Source: an uncultured Bacteroidota bacterium (GTDB lineage Bacteria; Bacteroidota; Bacteroidia; Chitinophagales; Chitinophagaceae). From it: a stretch of 64,000 nucleotides of DNA. The notes beneath the pieces are model-generated. The model worked only from the letters and a program-made list of their open reading frames with translations. It made no database searches and was not told the origin of the DNA. The position numbers and the translations under genes are program-made. Below are positions 2,008 through 14,310 of the stretch, one piece after another; the stretch's first letter is position 1; each line of letters begins with the position of its first letter. The stretch spans positions 1 through 64,000 of the forward strand of contig CAIVEH010000042.1 of the NCBI GenBank assembly GCA_903904855.1. The letters are read 5' to 3'.

Positions 2008-3216
2008 CTATTCGACAACGATGCGTTTCACAACGGGGGCAATCAGGTCGTTATTGAACCTGATTTTTACAAAATAAACACCCTTGATAAAACGGGAAGT
2101 ATTGATTTCGAAGTTATCTCTGTTCAGGTTATCGGCTGAGAAAACAGTGCGGCCAGTCTGATCGTAGGCAGCAATACCATTGATAGTTGCCGATGAACTG
2201 ATGTTAACTTCGCTGGTGGCCGGGTTGGGGAAAATGGATAATTCGGCAACAGGATTTACATTATTAACGCCAGTGTACACAACTCCCGGACAGATGAAAT
2301 TGAACAGGAATACCCTGATCATAGAATCAACTGTGTTGAACTTAACAGGATCAGATGCCCATGGCACATGCAAATCTCCCGGAAAAATATGGCTCATATG
2401 GTTGATACCGCTTGAAACATAAACAGGTTCAAGCGCTCCCAGACCACAAAGATTTACAAGTACAGCTCCGCTGAGGGGATAACCGCAATTATAGGGAACA
2501 GTATTATCGTTGGTTCCCTGCGCATTTACCGATGGTTTGCTGCCGGTATGCACAAATGATGTTTCATTGAGCGCACCCGCCAGGTTGATTACCGCATTCA
2601 GTTTTGTGGTGTAGCCTGCATTACCGCTGTTGCCTTCAAAACCGCCGTTTGCAGTAATAGCCCCGGCTATAGCTGCAGGGCAGGCACCCAGGCTATCGAT
2701 ATAGCCTACATGCATATATAATACTGCACCGGCAGAATTGCCGCCGGCATAAATATTGTTTGTATCAATTTTATAGGTGTTGGTAGTAGCCCTGTCGTGC
2801 ATAAAATAACGGATTGCAGCTTTGCCGTCGCCTATGGCCCTGGCTACCTCATTAATTGCAGAATCAGCGCTCAGAACAAATGTGATGCCATCCATAGTGC
2901 GGTAATCGATAGATACGGTAACATAGCCACGCTTTGCAAACCGCTGGCAAAGGTTAATTATAGTTGAGTCATTGGACCGGTCGCCCTGACCCGTAATGAA
3001 ACTACCACCATGGGCAAGAATAATGAGCGGCCTTGCCGATGCCGTGTCTCCAGCAGGCTGGTATATATCCATCTGCTGGCTGTATACAGTAGAATAGGTA
3101 ACTGTGGTTTTGTTTACAGTCGGGAATATTTCGTTCCAATACCTGCCATTGGTGCACTGTGCGTCGGCAGTATTAAATAAAATTGAAGCTAGCAGGAGCA
3201 AGTATAATTTCCTCAT
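2008..3216 (-). CDS. secreted alpha/beta hydrolase (carboxylesterase-like) with T9SS sorting domain
   Basis: 402 residues. A signal peptide occupies residues 1-20, followed by an alpha/beta hydrolase domain to about 300. The oxyanion-hole motif HGGSF lies near 70 and the nucleophile elbow GGNSAG near 158-163, with Ser161 the likely nucleophile. Candidate Asp and His are in GTNDNTVPY and SGINHMSHIF. The last ~80 residues match the T9SS type A tail: an IFPNPA strand, a YDQTGR turn and an ending FIKGVYFVKI...VVKRIVVE. It is therefore predicted to cross the outer membrane and be anchored or released. The substrate cannot be told. It appears monocistronic, with a MITE-like element upstream at 3324. 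Confidence 0.85.
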   Translation of the reverse strand: MRKLYLLLLASILFNTADAQCTNGRYWNEIFPTVNKTTVTYSTVYSQQMDIYQPAGDTASARPLIILAHGGSFITGQGDRSNDSTIINLCQRFAKRGYVTVSIDYRTMDGITFVLSADSAINEVARAIGDGKAAIRYFMHDRATTNTYKIDTNNIYAGGNSAGAVLYMHVGYIDSLGACPAAIAGAITANGGFEGNSGNAGYTTKLNAVINLAGALNETSFVHTGSKPSVNAQGTNDNTVPYNCGYPLSGAVLVNLCGLGALEPVYVSSGINHMSHIFPGDLHVPWASDPVKFNTVDSMIRVFLFNFICPGVVYTGVNNVNPVAELSIFPNPATSEVNISSSATINGIAAYDQTGRTVFSADNLNRDNFEINTSRFIKGVYFVKIRFNNDLIAPVVKRIVVE

Positions 3217-5292: not shown

Positions 5293-5418
5293 ATGAAATA
5301 CAGGATAGTGACCATTTTGGCCCTTTTAATTGTGCTTATGGAGTTCAGCAGTTGCGCAAACCATCAATACCCGGCCAGTTACCACCATGGCAATAATGGC
5401 AAATCACGGTTTTATTGA
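5293..5418 (+). CDS. tiny predicted lipoprotein (41 aa)
   Basis: ATG at 5293 opens a 41-codon frame: a hydrophobic stretch ILALLIVLMEFSSCA with a lipobox-like Cys at residue 21, then a short polar tail rich in His, Tyr and Asn ending KSRFY. The last 15 bases overlap, on the opposite strand, the end of the receptor gene that stops at 5404. It resembles the 80-residue lipoprotein at 38972 in plan (short signal, Cys, basic/His tail). Small size keeps confidence modest. Confidence 0.5.
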   Translation: MKYRIVTILALLIVLMEFSSCANHQYPASYHHGNNGKSRFY

Positions 5419-7401
5419 TTTTGCTGAAATAATCTCTGCATTAATACCAAATAACCAGTTGATTCCGGGCATTGGCCTATAGGACACAACCTGGTAACTC
5501 TCATTCCAGATATTGTTACACTGCCCGGTAAAACGAAGTTGGTGTCTTTTGATCATTTTACTGAACATTATCTGCACATTCCCTGTCTGGTATGGAGGCA
5601 GATTTTCTGATTCGTCTGTAGTAAGAAACCTGTAGCTGGTGTAGGTATGATTATAATTAAATGAAAACAGCCTGTAACTGAAGCCTAAATTAGCTTGCCC
5701 GTTGTATCGTGGCGCATACGGGATTTGTTTACCAATGCTGCCATCATTAAAAATATAGCTCGACGTTGTAGTTGCCAGCACATAAGCGGTATTAATACCA
5801 ACATGGAATTTCCAGTCGCCAACGGTATAAGTAATAGAATTTTCAGTTTCCATTCCGCGGCTATGTACCTCGGCAATATTGTGCGGCGTCCATATTGCAC
5901 CACCCAACCATATTATCCAGTCATGAATATCTCTGCTGAATAATGATGCATCATGATAGAACGTAAAACCGCCTGTTTTCAGTTTAATTGTGTATCCGGC
6001 ATCCTCACTCCAGCCACGTTCAGGCTTAAGATTGATATTGCCACCCGGAAAGTAATACAACTCATTCAGCGAAGGCGTGCGATACGTATATTGTATGTTA
6101 GCTCTTATCTGCAACCAATGGAACAATGAACCGTAAACATTGGCTCCGGGTAAGAAAACAGTTTTCTGCACCTGGCTGTCGCTATGGTTAATGATTCTTT
6201 CGGCCCTTGCATTCAGTGCAATATCCAGTCTTTCATTAAAACGCTTTACATCCCATGCGCTGGCTATGGCCAGCTTATCCTGCTGCTTTGTATTTACATT
6301 GCCTTGCTGTGGAAGCCATGAAATCTGCAATGGGACAAAAAGTAGAATCCTGCCAAGACCTCCTAATTCCTTTTTCCAGCCCACTTCCTGAAAATACTGA
6401 TAAACGACATTCTCGGTATGCAGCAGAATAGAGCTGTCGGTATAACTGATCCTATCGCGGATGAATGAAGATTTGGCATACCACTTATTGCTGCCCGATT
6501 GATTTTTCCAGTCGGCAAGCAACCTTAATGAGCCATCAATTTGATTTTTCACCGAATAGGTTTCCAGTAATACAGGTGGTATCTCCCTTTTATACTGCTG
6601 ATACCAACCGGTAAGGCTGATAATATTCCGATCATCCAATTTATGGGCGCCTTTTAATAAAATAGCATCGCTGCCCAGCTTGCTATTGGGCATATTCGTT
6701 TTGATCCCTGATTCACTTGTAAAGGGGAAATTATTCTGAGCAGTCTGAGCAAAAATATTACCTGAAAAAAACCATCGTTGCCCGCTGATCATTCCATTAA
6801 GCCCACCCGAATATTGCCCGAAACTGCCAGTGGCTCCATTCATAGACAACTTCCTTTTACTGGTATCAAAGACCGGCGCATCATTTTCAAGCAACAAAGC
6901 CCCGCCAACATTGCCACTACCCCATAATGCTGCTGAACCGCCATAAACTATGTTCACTTTATTCATAAAGGCAACAGGCAATTCAGATACATCGGCTATT
7001 CCCAAAGCGGCATTCTGAACAGGGACTCCATTCCATAAAACGGCAGATTGTGCAGAGGATGACCCTCTGAAATTAAGCGTTGCCAGACTATTAAACCCGT
7101 ACGATTTCACAAATACGGGTACTTGCTGGGTAAGCAGGTTAGCCATATTCTGCATCTGGTATTGCTGTAAAGTAGCGCTGTCTATTGATTTTATTTTTTG
7201 CCCGGGTGAGAAGTCATTTAGACGGGTATCGTTTGATATTTTATGCCTGGAATGGATTTTTACTTCCTGAAGTAAAGAGTCCGTTTTTGATTGTGCCTGA
7301 ATTTTATTTAAAAAGAACAACAACATCAGTACTAATGCAAGTTTGTGCCTCCAAACACCGGGATGAAAACAATCCTGAATTATAATCTTTTTACTCATCA
7401 A
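5404..7401 (-). CDS. TonB-dependent receptor, BtuB-like (cobalamin uptake)
   Basis: 665 residues. A signal peptide at 1-37 is followed by a TonB-box-like region (LLQEVKIHS), a plug domain to about 165 (LNFRGSSSAQSAVLWNGVPV, GGSAALWGSGNVGGALLLEN) and a 22-strand barrel to the C terminus. The plug and size match the BtuB/Cir class rather than the large SusC class. It is the last gene of a four-gene operon led by a cobalamin riboswitch (10600-10790) and overlaps the BtuG-like gene by 11 bp, so the substrate is very probably vitamin B12 or a related corrinoid. Substrate assignment rests on context; the receptor family itself is clear. Confidence 0.88.
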   Translation of the reverse strand: MMSKKIIIQDCFHPGVWRHKLALVLMLLFFLNKIQAQSKTDSLLQEVKIHSRHKISNDTRLNDFSPGQKIKSIDSATLQQYQMQNMANLLTQQVPVFVKSYGFNSLATLNFRGSSSAQSAVLWNGVPVQNAALGIADVSELPVAFMNKVNIVYGGSAALWGSGNVGGALLLENDAPVFDTSKRKLSMNGATGSFGQYSGGLNGMISGQRWFFSGNIFAQTAQNNFPFTSESGIKTNMPNSKLGSDAILLKGAHKLDDRNIISLTGWYQQYKREIPPVLLETYSVKNQIDGSLRLLADWKNQSGSNKWYAKSSFIRDRISYTDSSILLHTENVVYQYFQEVGWKKELGGLGRILLFVPLQISWLPQQGNVNTKQQDKLAIASAWDVKRFNERLDIALNARAERIINHSDSQVQKTVFLPGANVYGSLFHWLQIRANIQYTYRTPSLNELYYFPGGNINLKPERGWSEDAGYTIKLKTGGFTFYHDASLFSRDIHDWIIWLGGAIWTPHNIAEVHSRGMETENSITYTVGDWKFHVGINTAYVLATTTSSYIFNDGSIGKQIPYAPRYNGQANLGFSYRLFSFNYNHTYTSYRFLTTDESENLPPYQTGNVQIMFSKMIKRHQLRFTGQCNNIWNESYQVVSYRPMPGINWLFGINAEIISAKSIKP

Positions 7402-8461
7402 AATAAAAATGCCCTGGCCCTTTACCTACATTGAAATTCTTTATCAATGTACCATCAGGGCGATAAATATATACAGTGCCCTGCTGAACAAAGCCCTTAG
7501 GGTCTCCTATAAAAATATTACCCGTAGATGGTTCAATACCCAATGCATAGAAATATTGGTTTTGCTCGGCAGGAATAAAGGGTATGTTTGGAATTGATTT
7601 TTCGTAGATTCCCATGCGGTATATCCCGTAATTTGAGGTTCCTCCAAATAAATTTGCCTCAATAAAATATAAAGTATCCCTCGTAGTATTAAACACAGGT
7701 TTCATTACATAAGGTTCCGAAGGGAAAGAATAAGATTGCAATATATTACCGGTGGATGGGTCCAGCCTGGTTAATGTAGCCGGTATCTGAGGTTCATCTC
7801 CAGCCAGCACCCAAAGCATCTGGTCCTTATCCAGTAATAATTCCTGGGGGGCATTGCCTGCAACTTTGATAGAATCCACAACCGTGTTGGTGAGTGTATT
7901 AATGCTGTAAATTTTATTGCCTGCCGAGACATCCCATGACCCGGCAAAAACCGTATTGTAATAAAGGCACATTCCCTCAACCGCCTTCCCAGGCATTATA
8001 ATAGAATCAGTAACCTGCATTGACTGCGGATTGATGATAAAGATTTTGTTGTGGTATTCAGAGGATACATAGGCTTTGGTGGTGCTGATGGGCAAAATAT
8101 AGCGTGGCTGAGGTATGTTCAATGTTGCTGAAAGCATCCAGTTACCCGCATTAAGCACAACTATTTTATTTGAATTGTTGACAACCACGAATAGTTTATC
8201 ACCAATGTGTTGCATACTCTGGAATATATCCCCCATCGGTTGCTTGTTTACTGCCTGATAGATATCTCCAAATACACTGTCTGTAGCAGGAGCATAGGCA
8301 TACAGTGTGGCATTATAATCGTTATACTTTCCCTCACACGCAATGTAAACATTGCCGGTAGCGCCAGGCACAGTATTAGTTATATTATGGGGCTTATCTT
8401 TGACACAAGCCGCCATACAGCATAGTAAAACAATCAGCGCTTTGTAATCTTTTCTAACCAT
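7391..8461 (-). CDS. BtuG-like surface beta-propeller lipoprotein (YncE/DUF5074 type)
   Basis: 356 residues. The lipobox LLCCMAAC puts the acylated Cys near 19, and the rest forms repeated YVSSEYHNKIFIINPQ / YSINTLTNTVVDSIKV blades typical of YncE-like seven-bladed propellers. In Bacteroides, BtuG proteins of this kind cap BtuB and bind B12 with extreme affinity. Here the gene sits directly before a BtuB-like receptor, overlapping it by 11 bp, under a cobalamin riboswitch, so the same role is a strong inference. It also overlaps the upstream T9SS gene by 28 bp, suggesting translational coupling. Confidence 0.8.
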   Translation of the reverse strand: MVRKDYKALIVLLCCMAACVKDKPHNITNTVPGATGNVYIACEGKYNDYNATLYAYAPATDSVFGDIYQAVNKQPMGDIFQSMQHIGDKLFVVVNNSNKIVVLNAGNWMLSATLNIPQPRYILPISTTKAYVSSEYHNKIFIINPQSMQVTDSIIMPGKAVEGMCLYYNTVFAGSWDVSAGNKIYSINTLTNTVVDSIKVAGNAPQELLLDKDQMLWVLAGDEPQIPATLTRLDPSTGNILQSYSFPSEPYVMKPVFNTTRDTLYFIEANLFGGTSNYGIYRMGIYEKSIPNIPFIPAEQNQYFYALGIEPSTGNIFIGDPKGFVQQGTVYIYRPDGTLIKNFNVGKGPGHFYFDE

Positions 8462-9435
8462 CTGTTTCCATTAAGATCACTTAAAGTAAGAAAATACATT
8501 CCGGAAGGATATTGACCCATCAAAATTTCGTTGTTCTTATCGGACAATATGATTTGTTGCAGCACAATACCTGTAATATTTGTAAGAGAGGCCTTCAGCC
8601 CTGAAGGAAATTGATTAGTAATACTTACAACTACCCCATCGCTGGCTGGATTAGGGTAGATATTTACCGAAATGTTGCCTGGCAATTGTTTCACGGACTC
8701 ATAAAGTTCGTGGATCACACCTATTGCATCCAGATCAAACCCACAAGATGGGTATGGTGTTGGATAAGGGTCATTTATTCTCCTTCCGGCACTGTCAAGT
8801 GAAGCATGACCATTTATTGGTCCTACTACATCCACTATTCGCACATTAGTAATATTATTTACATCAAGACCTGGGATACCAATCAAATCATCGAGGTCGA
8901 AAGGTGTTCCATACATGCCAACGTACTTGCCTGCCAGGTTATTCAAATTTGCAGCATCAATATAACTGTTGTTGCTGACCTGCACTTGAGTTTGTGTTAA
9001 TGAATTGGCCGGGAACCGGAAGTAATGAATACCATCTGAACTAACTTCAACAAAACCCAGTTCAAGAAAGGCTAATGAAGAGTCAGTGGCATTTCTGAAC
9101 CCGTTTTCGAATACCGCAAAATCAGGGCCCGGGCCATTATAAATTGGGTGGATAAATGTTAAATCTGCGATTCCGCTATCTCCCAGACTCACTGTATTAT
9201 CATCGGCAGGCCCTATAGCCTGGCTGCTGTCTCCTATACTGGCATAACCCAAAGTGGGATTGGCAATATCCATAAATCCCCTTTGAATAGTGCAGCCAGT
9301 TGCCCATGCTGCAAACCGGCCACTGGTGGCGCTGATAGCGGTACTGCCCGTGAGGCCTGCCTGTGGTGCATATTGCGCCAGCACATTGCAGAAAAAGGAT
9401 AGAAATGAAATGAGGGATATAACTGTGAATTTCAT
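8434..9435 (-). CDS. T9SS-sorted surface protein of the cobalamin operon, function unknown
   Basis: 333 residues with a signal peptide (1-20) and a T9SS tail from about 255 (IYPNPASDGVVVSI ... GMYFLTLSDLNGNRWLEKI). The main domain carries the ordered motifs GPGPDFAVFENGF, FVEVSSDGIHYFRFP, NLAGKYVGMYGTPFDLDDL and ITNVRIVDVVG, then DPYPTPYPSCGFDLDAIGVI. I have seen this arrangement called only cell surface protein. Its place between BtuH-like and BtuG-like genes, 9 bp and -28 bp apart, argues for a part in corrinoid capture. No enzyme motif is visible. The Asp-rich conserved loops could bind calcium. Confidence 0.75.
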   Translation of the reverse strand: MKFTVISLISFLSFFCNVLAQYAPQAGLTGSTAISATSGRFAAWATGCTIQRGFMDIANPTLGYASIGDSSQAIGPADDNTVSLGDSGIADLTFIHPIYNGPGPDFAVFENGFRNATDSSLAFLELGFVEVSSDGIHYFRFPANSLTQTQVQVSNNSYIDAANLNNLAGKYVGMYGTPFDLDDLIGIPGLDVNNITNVRIVDVVGPINGHASLDSAGRRINDPYPTPYPSCGFDLDAIGVIHELYESVKQLPGNISVNIYPNPASDGVVVSITNQFPSGLKASLTNITGIVLQQIILSDKNNEILMGQYPSGMYFLTLSDLNGNRWLEKITKR

Positions 9436-9444
9436 AAAAGGGGT

Positions 9445-10455
9445 TTATTGCTGTTTTAAAAAACGTACTGCTGCGCACTTCCCGCTTCCGGCTAACTGAA
9501 GTATATAACTTCCTGGTATCAACTCTGAGGTATTTATTTCCAGTAATTTACCGGTAACAGGAAATGTCGTAATAACCTTGCCTGACAAATCTGATATGCT
9601 TGCCTGCTGTACAGAATTTTGAAATATTTCGGCATACAAAATATTTCTGGCCGGATTAGGATAAATCTTTGCCACAGGTTGCGCTTGTTCCTGTGCTGTA
9701 TTCAGAGAACCAGAACCGGCAGTTTCATTTGTTGTGAAATTATCCAGGCAGAAATAGGCAGGTGTGTTCATTCCATAAGTGCCGTTATCTGTAGAACTCA
9801 AAGAAAACTGCAGACTATCTACATTCCCAAGCGATGCAAGGTTTACCCATTGCCATGTTTTTACGATATAATTCATTGTGGTATCCGGGAACAGAAAATC
9901 TGCGAGGTAAAACGTCACACTGTCCGAACTCAATGTGCCACCGCTATATCCCTTTATAGTCAGTTTGAACCAGTCGCCGTTATGAAATTTCCTCGAAAAC
10001 ATGTCGCCATATTTCATACTATTACAGGCATAAGTACTATTGGTAATGTAGCAACCCGAAACCGGATGATTCAAGGCTGCCCCGTTTAACTTCACTACCA
10101 TTGAATTATCATAAGTCACCGGATTGTAGCAATAGGCAACAATATAGTTGTTGGAGCCGCCATATCCTATTGCAGTCTTTGCCGAATATTGGTTTGTGTA
10201 GCCGCTCGTCACGCTGTCGGTCATATTGGAATAGGCAAAGCCATAACTCCAGAAACCACCAAAGGAGGTATCGTAAACACAGGGGAAATGGGCCAGACCA
10301 TCATTAAAACCAACATCACTACCCGATGCTGAATAATTGACATAGAATGTGTCGGGATGAGCAAGTATCAGGTCATCAAAAGTGGCCACAGTCTGAGCCC
10401 GCAGGTTATAACTAGCAGAAATAAAGATAACAAACAAAAATGTACTAATGCGCAT
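9445..10455 (-). CDS. DUF4465 protein with T9SS tail, BtuH-like
   Basis: 336 residues from the ATG at 10455, which opens a good signal peptide (MRISTFLFVIFISASYNLRAQ-type); a longer frame to 10503 adds 16 residues without signal character. The body matches DUF4465: ATFDDL, GFWSYGFAYSNMTD, NQYSA, GSNNYIVAY, and FYLADF ... WQWVNLASLGNVDSLQFSLSSTD ... TPAYFCLDNFT. The tail after about 260 is T9SS type A. DUF4465 proteins were described in gut Bacteroides as BtuH, surface corrinoid binders. Here it is the first gene behind the cobalamin riboswitch, which supports that function, though secretion is by T9SS and not as a lipoprotein. Confidence 0.8.
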   Translation of the reverse strand: MRISTFLFVIFISASYNLRAQTVATFDDLILAHPDTFYVNYSASGSDVGFNDGLAHFPCVYDTSFGGFWSYGFAYSNMTDSVTSGYTNQYSAKTAIGYGGSNNYIVAYCYNPVTYDNSMVVKLNGAALNHPVSGCYITNSTYACNSMKYGDMFSRKFHNGDWFKLTIKGYSGGTLSSDSVTFYLADFLFPDTTMNYIVKTWQWVNLASLGNVDSLQFSLSSTDNGTYGMNTPAYFCLDNFTTNETAGSGSLNTAQEQAQPVAKIYPNPARNILYAEIFQNSVQQASISDLSGKVITTFPVTGKLLEINTSELIPGSYILQLAGSGKCAAVRFLKQQ

Positions 10456-10599
10456 ATAGAAATTGTTATTAAACCAATTTTCAAAATGCCGCAACCAGGT
10501 CAAAATATTCCAGATACAGAAAAATGCAGGCTACCCCCACGTTAGTCTCATCTGTGCTTTTGATCCCGAAAGCAGCGATAAGTAAACCCAATTTTGATT

Positions 10600-10790
10600 G
10601 GGGGACAAAGGCAGGTCTTCTGGCTAACTCCACTTTTTCGAGGCCTTCCCATCCCGGGTCATCGGGGCAGTGGCAAAACAGGTAGCGAAAAAGCTTTAAA
10701 CGGAGCATACAGCATCGGGTAATGCCCGGGATTCTCACCCGGTTCCCTTTTCATCCTTACACCACCGGTGGTCAGGAACCATTGCTTGCA
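10600..10790 (-). promoter_or_regulatory. cobalamin riboswitch
   Basis: Read on the minus strand, the element starts with GGTTCCTGACC..., carries AAGGATGAAAAGGGAACC, the paired GGGTGAGAATCCCGGGCATTACCCGATGCTGT region, a GCCACTG box (B12 box) and ends GTTAGCCAGAAGACCTGCC. These are the conserved blocks, in order, of the AdoCbl riboswitch class. It lies 145 bp upstream of the DUF4465 gene. A CCCCC run at 10600-10604 and a GGGGG run near 10535 could pair and form part of the expression platform; that is a guess. Expected effect: repression of the B12 uptake operon when cobalamin is plentiful. Confidence 0.93.
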
Positions 10791-11321
10791 CAAAAATAGA
10801 AACTAAAATTCAAAGCTGAGAACTATTTTTCGCAAAACAGAGTCAATATTTTTTATGGTAAAATTTCAAATTTAGAATTTAATTATATTTTTTATACACT
10901 TAATGATGCCTATAATAAATTTACTCTTTTCTGGATGAGCTATAAATTGAACAGGATACCAGATCTTACATTTAGTGTAACTTCGAATACCAAATATTTT
11001 AAAATGACCCGCACTAGCGGCCATACATATACTATTAAATATTATTAATAAAGCTTATTAAAAATGTCTGTTTTTTCCGACTTTTGTATTTAAGTAAACA
11101 CAGTAAATTGCAGATGCAGCATAATTTTTTGAAATAAAAAAAACAATAATAATGCCATGGTCATTTATTAAAGCATAAATAACCACTATGAAGTATAAAT
11201 TACAAGTACCAGAAACACAAAAACCATATATCTCATAGCATTAAATTAACATGCATTACATTTATTCTCCTATGTATATTATTCAAATAAAAATTAAGAG
11301 AAATTCCTGAAAACCAGTTTA
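10791..11321. other. AT-rich intergenic region
   Basis: 530 bp between the riboswitch and the divergent Wzy-like gene. It must hold the promoters of both, but I cannot pinpoint them. Composition is strongly AT-rich with many TATA/AAATA runs. No gene, hairpin or repeat worth naming is seen. Confidence 0.5.
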
Positions 11322-12656: not shown

Positions 12657-12933
12657 CAACATGCATTCATACTAAGTTCTGATAAGCATGAGTATTTATA
12701 ATTATAAGGCTGGTTAAAATTAAGGTGGTTAAAATGCGAGTAGCTTCATTTTATTGAAACTAATTACCTTTCTTCTCATTCTCCTTTTCCGATTTTTTAT
12801 GTAGGTTTGTAATGAAGGCCCGGTTAAACTTTTTCAACCGGAGGTTATCTGATTAATACCGGGAATAATTATTTGTCGGCTACCTGCAGGTTTTCAGGTT
12901 TGTAATACCTGATTTTCTATTTAATTAGTTTTT

Positions 12934-14310
12934 ATGACCGAACAACAATCCGTTTTTCTAGCTAAAAGCAGAATAAAGGCCAGTGATCTGGAGCATAAAC
13001 GTAAAGTGGCGTTTAATATCCAGAAGTATAATGACAGTGTAGTTAAGGGCAAGCAGCAGTTTGCCCAGCTTGAATCTGCACGGCAAAAAGCTAAAAATAT
13101 AAAGTGGAAAGTAATTGAACGGCTGGATAAATACCTCGAAGAATTTGAGCAGCGGTTTACAGCAAATGGCGGCCGGGTGATATGGGCAGAAAATGCAGAA
13201 GAGGCACAACAGGCAATATTACAAATATGCAAGGAGAAGAACACCCGGCAGGTGGTAAAGGCCAAAAGCATGGTAACAGAGGAGATACACCTGAATGATT
13301 TCCTGGCAAAAAATGGCATAGAATCGGTAGAGACAGACCTTGGGGAGTATATACAGCAACTGGATGGAGAACCACCCTACCATATTGTTACGCCTGCCAT
13401 GCACAAAAGCAAAGAGGATGTAGCCAAGGTGTTTTATGATAAACTAGGCACTGAGCCTAATCTGACGCCTCCGGAAATAACAAAAATAGCCCGGGAGAAC
13501 CTTCGGCAAAAATATGTTAGTGCAGAGGTGGGAGTAACCGGGGGCAATTTTCTGCTGGCAGATATCGGAGCAGTATGCGTAACAGAAAATGAAGGCAACG
13601 CCAGGCTTTGCAGCACTTTTCCTCCCACATTGATATCTGTTGTAGGCATTGAAAAATTGCTTCCTTCTGTTGGTGATCTGCACCTTTTCTGGCCTCTGCT
13701 GGCTACATATGGCACTGGGCAGCAACTTACTGTATACAACTCCATCCTTTCAGGTCCAAGGAAAGCAAATGAAACTGATGGCCCAACTGAAATGTATGTG
13801 ATATTGCTGGACAACGGGCGTACCAACCTGCTGCGCCGGGAGGTAAGGGAGAGCATGTATTGCATACGGTGCGGCAGTTGCCTGAATGCATGCCCGGTTT
13901 ATAAAAACATTGGCGGCCATGCATATGGAGCTACATACAGCGGGCCGATAGGATCAGTCATTACTCCGCATATGAGCGGACTTGAAGAATATAAACACCT
14001 CAGTTATGCATCGAGCCTGTGTGGCAACTGCACCGAGGTATGCCCACTAAAGATAAATATACATGGGATGCTGCTGGAGAACAGAGCCATAATGGTGGAT
14101 ATGCGGTTGAATGACAACATGGAGAATTTTTCCTGGACATTGTGGAAACGTGCAATGCTAAGCCGCAGATTGCTTAATATGGCCGGAGCAGGCATTAAAG
14201 ATAAAGTGGTGAATAAGGTGTTTAAAGATAGCTGGTGCAAAGACAGGGGTGAGTTGCATTTTGCAGAACGATCATTTAATAAAATGTGGAAAGAACGGGT
14301 ACATAATTAA
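12934..14310 (+). CDS. lutB: LutB-like iron-sulfur protein (lactate utilization)
   Basis: 458 residues. An LUD domain covers about 60-290 (NPYHIVTPAMHKSK-like region, GVTGGNFLLADIGAVCVTENEGN). Two [4Fe-4S] motifs follow: CIRCGSCLNACPVY near 309-322 and CGNCTEVCPL near 362-371. This is the LutB/YkgF architecture of the LutABC L-lactate oxidation complex. The lutA and lutC partners are not adjacent here, so either they lie elsewhere or this subunit works with other proteins. The downstream gene begins 10 bp after the stop and is probably co-transcribed. The family call is firm; the pathway role is inferred. Confidence 0.9.
   Translation: MTEQQSVFLAKSRIKASDLEHKRKVAFNIQKYNDSVVKGKQQFAQLESARQKAKNIKWKVIERLDKYLEEFEQRFTANGGRVIWAENAEEAQQAILQICKEKNTRQVVKAKSMVTEEIHLNDFLAKNGIESVETDLGEYIQQLDGEPPYHIVTPAMHKSKEDVAKVFYDKLGTEPNLTPPEITKIARENLRQKYVSAEVGVTGGNFLLADIGAVCVTENEGNARLCSTFPPTLISVVGIEKLLPSVGDLHLFWPLLATYGTGQQLTVYNSILSGPRKANETDGPTEMYVILLDNGRTNLLRREVRESMYCIRCGSCLNACPVYKNIGGHAYGATYSGPIGSVITPHMSGLEEYKHLSYASSLCGNCTEVCPLKINIHGMLLENRAIMVDMRLNDNMENFSWTLWKRAMLSRRLLNMAGAGIKDKVVNKVFKDSWCKDRGELHFAERSFNKMWKERVHN

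Follow-up and report, generated by a model that had tools for sequence, protein, structure and literature searches.

A riboswitch-linked cobamide operon in an uncultured Chitinophagaceae bacterium encodes BtuJ-family and BtuH-related proteins with predicted type IX secretion tails

How cobamides are captured at the cell surface is known from gut Bacteroides, whose binding proteins are lipoproteins. A four-gene operon from an uncultured Bacteroidota bacterium (Chitinophagaceae; assembly GCA_903904855.1, contig CAIVEH010000042.1) raises the question of whether the same job can be given to proteins that carry sorting tails of the type IX secretion system (T9SS). The operon lies in a stretch of 64,000 nucleotides that we call the window, and the genome it comes from is 5.6 Mb and 97% complete. 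The four genes, all on the minus strand and tightly packed, lie downstream of a cobalamin riboswitch and encode, in order, a BtuJ-family protein, a BtuH-related protein, a BtuG-like lipoprotein, and a BtuB-like receptor. We consider this probably to be an operon for scavenging cobamides, with BtuJ and BtuH-related proteins that are displayed by the T9SS, instead of being lipoproteins, and that supply a BtuG-BtuB transporter. This reading draws on the observed gene order, riboswitch, family relations, and tails, on the conservation of the linkage among relatives, and on three gene fusions.

The riboswitch and the Btu genes

A search with the Rfam cobalamin model RF00174 found an aptamer at positions 10593-10798 (minus strand) with a score of 93 bits (gathering score 31.5, E 8.2e-22). 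This was the one match found genome-wide, with 150 of the 164 first-look candidates scored. A leader (10456-10592, minus strand) separates the aptamer from the likely ATG of gene 1. No expression platform stood out in the leader region: terminator-like sites were about as frequent as in shuffled sequences (6 versus 4.9), and the fold z was -1.22. Genes 1 and 2 are 9 bp apart, genes 2 and 3 overlap by 28 nt, and genes 3 and 4 overlap by 8 nt. The initial annotation of this DNA had described a riboswitch-controlled corrinoid uptake locus with genes overlapping or a few bases apart. The strong Rfam match, the spacing, and the presence of BtuG-like and BtuB-like genes behind the riboswitch bear this out.

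Gene 4 (5404-7398, minus strand; open reading frame (ORF) 7401-5404 with an ATG at 7398) is predicted to encode a TonB-dependent receptor (PF00593, PF07715). Its best match among the Bacteroides BtuB chains in the PDB was 8p97_A (E 1.8e-49), in keeping with the BtuB-like label given earlier. It scored 69.7 bits with the BtuB model TIGR01779, below the cut-off of 599.7. Gene 3 (7391-8461, minus strand) encodes a DUF5074 propeller (PF16819, E 5.3e-20) that matched BtuG chains in the PDB down to E 1.8e-39, and its signal ends in a lipobox, MAAC, that we read from the sequence and that a crude lipobox pattern did not pick. The propeller had been proposed as a BtuG-like lipoprotein, and its PDB sequence matches were to BtuG, not to unrelated enzymes; this comparison was by sequence, not by Foldseek. 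In relatives, BtuG serves as the lid of a transporter that it makes up together with BtuB (PMC10404256). Here, too, a BtuG-type lipoprotein gene adjoins a BtuB-type receptor gene, and the differences that we observed are of sequence divergence only.

Gene 1 (9445-10455, minus strand) has an ORF of 10503-9445 that opens at a TTG at position 10503, and the likely start is the in-frame ATG at 10455, the methionine at which the homologue consensus starts. It is the only DUF4465 protein found in the genome (PF14717, E 1.1e-54, 186 bits versus a cut-off of 25) and by sequence search it matched the PDB DUF4465 chains 9hmu (E 6.5e-25) and 9fct (E 3.6e-22). The initial annotation had called this protein BtuH-like. 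We ruled this out: in B. thetaiotaomicron, proteins with DUF4465 (IPR027828) were named BtuJ by Juodeikis et al. (PMC12751083), a name also used in PMC13398666, and the BtuH relative is gene 2. B12 binding has been reported for BtuJ1, BtuJ2, and six distant DUF4465 members, one of the six from Fluviicola taffensis (PMC12751083, PMC13398666), and the PDB sequence matches of gene 1 were to such B12-binding proteins instead of unrelated enzymes, again judged by sequence and not by Foldseek. DUF4465 proteins are described as having a conserved HI loop with a B12-binding tyrosine (PMC13398666). Gene 1 has the whole domain and carries this loop as NTPAYF (9751-9768, minus strand); the motif [NG]TP.Y fits 32 of 54 aligned DUF4465 members and not the other 22. 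Gene 1 differs from the published members in adding a T9SS tail; neither "T9SS" nor "type IX" occurs in the main text of PMC13398666.

The gene list of cobamide operon 2 of B. thetaiotaomicron is BtuJ2-BtuH2-BtuL-BtuG2-BtuB2-BtuF-BtuC-BtuD-BtuX (PMC12751083). The operon in the window shares with it the cobalamin riboswitch and a gene order that starts with a BtuJ, continues with a BtuH-related gene, and then has BtuG followed by BtuB. It differs in that BtuJ and BtuH of B. thetaiotaomicron are lipoproteins whereas their counterparts here have T9SS tails. It also has no PKD domains and no BtuFCD beside the operon, and there is no BtuL counterpart among the four genes, although no sequence comparison with BtuL (BT_1955) was made. 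In Flavobacterium psychrophilum, too, a TonB-dependent transporter is reported to be preceded by a cobalamin riboswitch (PMC9723704).

The relation of gene 2 to BtuH

Gene 2 (P3; 8434-9435, minus strand) had been left as an uncharacterized T9SS protein. Its domain has no Pfam match over cut-off and belongs to a conserved, nameless family. Using a profile of 24 gene-2 sequences (A1) against 177,635 PDB sequences, we found a match to residues 393-497 of 8blw_B (E 2.8e-7); the remaining PDB matches fell on the tail end of the profile. The protein in that chain is BtuG1, of which the C-terminal ~250 residues form a BtuH domain (PMC10404256), and its residues 388-661 matched a BtuH in our comparisons. 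When a profile of the gene-2 domain (A6) was run against 1,930 other proteins, the top five were the BtuH proteins of five other loci, L153 to L157 (E 1.4e-8 to 0.0041), and the next had an E-value of 0.26. This BtuH set itself matched BtuH2 (7biz) with E 3.5e-65. In the opposite direction, the top 20 hits of a BtuH profile run against 1,918 ORFs were all gene-2 relatives, with weak scores (best E 2.2e-4), and at E <10 this profile found 65 of the 81 gene-2 members and 10 other proteins. The reciprocal test was partly non-blind, the BtuH proteins of L153-L155 having first been spotted as weak matches of the gene-2 profile; the L156 and L157 proteins were recognized by their PDB matches.

A model of gene 2 made with AlphaFold2 (AF2) from 79 sequences had a mean predicted local distance difference test (pLDDT) of 96.2 and a predicted template-modelling score (pTM) of 0.93, and has a beta-sandwich domain. 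In a Foldseek search with this model, the BtuGH chain 8blw_B ranked second, with a probability of 1.00 and a query TM score of 0.49, which was the highest of the 50 matches listed; an earlier and poorer model (pLDDT 81.7) had placed 8blw_B at rank 3. Two other assignments were tried and rejected. A profile comparison of gene 2 with DUF4465 (A2 against A4) matched the shared tail only, and the match to the LIC_13355 lipoprotein model (NF033170) reached 27.5 bits against a cut-off of 120. From this weak match, the gene-2 family may extend beyond Bacteroidota.

The residues of BtuH2 that touch B12 include Asn399 (at the phosphate), Phe401 (at the lower ligand), Gln333 (at the ribose), and, at the corrin, His476, Tyr510, Trp511, and Trp577 (PMC8941943). 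We numbered 7biz with an offset of 100, at which all contact residue types fit. Asn399 and Phe401 then fall on G-N-A-F, which hhalign pairs with F-E-N-G-F in the DFAVFENGF motif of gene 2 (9097-9123, minus strand), such that N111 and F113 align with Asn399 and Phe401. The motif asparagine is present in all 79 rows of the A6 alignment and all 81 of A3, and the phenylalanine in 76 of each (76/79 and 76/81).

Several results weigh against this relationship or against cobamide binding. The window's own gene 2 gave E 1.1 with the BtuH profile, BLASTP against one BtuH gave E 0.055, a phmmer search of the PDB with only this protein as query returned no BtuH, and five hhalign pairings gave probabilities of 87, 68, 45, 53, and 78%. 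No Foldseek match had E <0.001, and the aligned part of 8blw_B was not displayed. Among the residues, Gln333 aligns with a cysteine, and we identified no gene-2 counterparts of His476, Tyr510, Trp511, and Trp577, the corrin contacts falling outside the best alignment; thus, corrin binding by gene 2 is a conjecture. Asn399 and Phe401 are the only BtuH2 contacts with conserved counterparts.

The Foldseek list also bears on a different role for gene 2. Most of its other matches were to F5/8-type C, neuropilin, laminin, and CBM32 domains, and the fold of gene 2 resembles discoidin/CBM32 domains. This would suit a structural or docking partner that does not bind cobamides and that links BtuJ or BtuG, binds surface glycans, or has a BtuL-like role in vesicle release. 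Such a role also fits the fusion of the gene-2 domain to DUF4465 in three loci, and BtuL of B. thetaiotaomicron, which occupies a similar slot, showed no cobalamin binding (PMC12751083). However, the sequence profiles single out BtuH and not carbohydrate-binding modules, and the gene-2 asparagine that aligns with the phosphate-contacting residue of BtuH2 is invariant. We regard a docking role as rather unlikely.

Judged by the profiles of its relatives more than by the window's protein alone, gene 2 is a distant relative of BtuH (BT_1488, BT_1956, and the C-terminal half of BT_1490), with profiles in both directions singling out BtuH. The two appear to share a homologous core, an N-x-F motif, and a partnership with BtuB and BtuG. 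Gene 2 differs in being highly divergent, in having no recognizable counterpart of most corrin contacts, and in having a T9SS tail in place of the lipid anchor. Since it is not predicted to be a surface lipoprotein, we call it BtuH-related and not BtuH. By analogy with BtuH, we infer that gene 2 may bind a cobamide.

Sorting tails and conservation of the locus

The two predicted capture proteins end in T9SS sorting domains, as first proposed: their Por_Secre_tail (PF18962) scores were 35.7 bits for gene 1 (E 1e-8) and 35.8 bits for gene 2 (residues 259-330), with a Pfam cut-off of 27. With the type A model TIGR04183 (cut-off 23), the tail of gene 1 (residues 280-351; 9451-9666, minus strand) scored 36.2 bits and that of gene 2 (8446-8661, minus strand) scored 38.0 bits. 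The genome encodes SprA (2408 bits), the T9SS part that we searched for. At E 0.01 or better, all but one of the gene-2 members (80 of 81) and all but one of the DUF4465 members (53 of 54) had Por_Secre_tail; both sets include the window and count the same three fusion proteins. The crude lipobox pattern was found in 53 of 76 BtuG relatives and 2 of 52 DUF4465 members; it missed the window's BtuG and thus undercounts lipoproteins. It also matched 24 of the 81 gene-2 members. We rejected these as lipoproteins: 23 matches were to a WATGC-like stretch inside the domain and one (L059) was in a signal peptide.

These tails lead us to infer that genes 1 and 2 are exported by the T9SS. When cobalamin is scarce, the riboswitch would permit expression of the four genes, and BtuB with the lipoprotein BtuG would form an outer-membrane receptor with a lid. 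The products of genes 1 and 2 would cross the inner membrane by their signal peptides and the outer membrane by type IX export through their C-terminal tails, to be kept on the surface (or released) as cobamide traps that pass their ligand to BtuG-BtuB. Of these steps, cobamide binding by gene 2, the action of the tails here, and the hand-over of ligand are the presumed ones.

Some T9SS cargo is released and type A cargo is often cell-anchored. Release would make the tailed proteins freely diffusing cobamide carriers in the medium, and in B. thetaiotaomicron BtuJ does its work on vesicles, at a distance from the cell (PMC12751083). Against this, both tails match the type A model, and a free carrier would presumably often be lost. 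Free carriers are distinctly improbable, and we favor proteins displayed at the cell surface.

To place the operon among its relatives, we counted gene-2 matches at E 1e-5 or better and found them in 36 of 395 Bacteroidota genomes, including its own. In 29 gene-2 loci from other genomes with ~1.5 kb or less of flanking sequence, 14 had a BtuB or BtuG ORF (blastp E 1e-3). A contig scan of genomes confirmed at least 510 gene-2 relatives, of which the best 80 (the closest) were kept for locus counts using iterative profiles seeded with the window's own proteins; contig ends lower these counts. BtuG was present in the same-strand run of 70 of the 80, BtuB in 54 (by a profile that may also pick other TonB receptors), and DUF4465 in 51. 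At least one of BtuJ, BtuG, and BtuB was in the run in 74 and all three were in 35. The six without any (L072, L085, L089, L101, L105, L113) are a point against a constant association; L085 and L101 are on short contigs. The 28-nt overlap of gene 2 and BtuG recurred in 26 of 50 neighboring pairs, as estimated from first possible start codons. Of the 20 best loci, 19 had a cobalamin riboswitch by Rfam, the exception (L040) being on a contig that starts 47 bases before gene 2. Rfam also detected one in eight of nine loci chosen from 30 that were negative by a crude pattern, and none in the ninth, L117. In L071, L076, and L116, DUF4465, the gene-2 domain, and a C-terminal stretch are fused in one protein of 554-593 residues. 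Gene 2 is a conserved part of such Btu loci. Among the close loci are records of Taibaiella, Flavipsychrobacter, and Chitinophagaceae, along with some whose names refer to bog, fen, pond, or horse faeces. The cultured relative Taibaiella soli (L075) has the four-gene operon, and L059 and L067 have its first three genes.

Other T9SS-tailed proteins precede gene 2 in some loci: propellers by the BtuG profile in L087 and L096, DUF4430 proteins in L098 (with two such stretches) and L100 (with one), and others in L110, L112, and L117. In L098 (6760-7953) and L100 (6736-7950) the DUF4430 protein is the gene after the cobalamin riboswitch. We take DUF4430 to be the C-terminal domain of transcobalamin. 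A PDB search with the L098 protein did not confirm this link, hitting one chain over the T9SS-tail region. Repeats in the L098 and L110 proteins match a lipoprotein of the BtuH-bearing locus L157; thus, some domain kinds seem to occur on either anchor. In L153-L155, a run of BtuB, BtuG, and BtuH is followed by a protein of ~755 residues (for example, L154:6592-8871); that of L154 has DUF5074 (1.6e-120) and a T9SS tail, the makings of a secreted propeller.

We saw no link between T9SS tails and cobamide capture proteins in literature titles and the starts of abstracts, in a search that took in a minority of subscription papers and no bioRxiv preprints. "T9SS" and "type IX" are absent from the text of PMC8941943 and PMC12751083, as well as PMC13398666, and "T9SS" is absent from that of PMC10404256.

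Two neighboring genes were also observed. A small lipoprotein-like ORF of 41 residues (5293-5418, plus strand) with no Pfam match over cut-off is convergent with the end of btuB. A hydrolase-like protein (2008-3216, minus strand) has a C-terminal end that looks by eye like a T9SS tail; L042 has a similar protein (12819-14018) downstream of its btuB, so the neighborhood seems partly syntenic.

Cobamide demand and the wider family

The genome encodes the B12-dependent enzymes MetH (B12 domain) and NrdJ. CobJ, the sole biosynthesis marker searched for, was far below cut-off (23 of 246 bits). This is consistent with cobamide scavenging. The import of another corrinoid or a related compound, and not vitamin B12 itself, would fit the divergence of the binders, which may prefer another lower ligand. 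Against this reading are the cobalamin riboswitch and the B12-dependent MetH and NrdJ, and we consider it highly improbable.

The inner-membrane step counts against a complete scavenging route. We found no match to a FecCD (BtuC-type) permease in this 97% complete genome while 13 of 14 control genomes were positive, leaving this step unaccounted for. Of 18 genomes of the same genus, 3 had a FecCD permease and 15 had none; several of these genomes are incomplete and their uptake operons were not checked. The result poses a separate question about how cobamides enter across the inner membrane.

More broadly, and tentatively, T9SS-bearing Bacteroidota may use modular, T9SS-displayed binders (DUF4465, the BtuH-related gene-2 domain, DUF4430 repeats, and propellers) that replace one another in the positions behind the riboswitch and supply BtuG-BtuB. 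Gut Bacteroides, with their lipoproteins, would then represent a derived state or an alternative, and in this genus the inner membrane would be crossed by a non-BtuCD route. The nameless gene-2 family is here tied to BtuH, a domain said by Putnam et al. to have no known structural homologues. The capture job done by lipoproteins in gut Bacteroides appears to be assigned to T9SS cargo in many other Bacteroidota.

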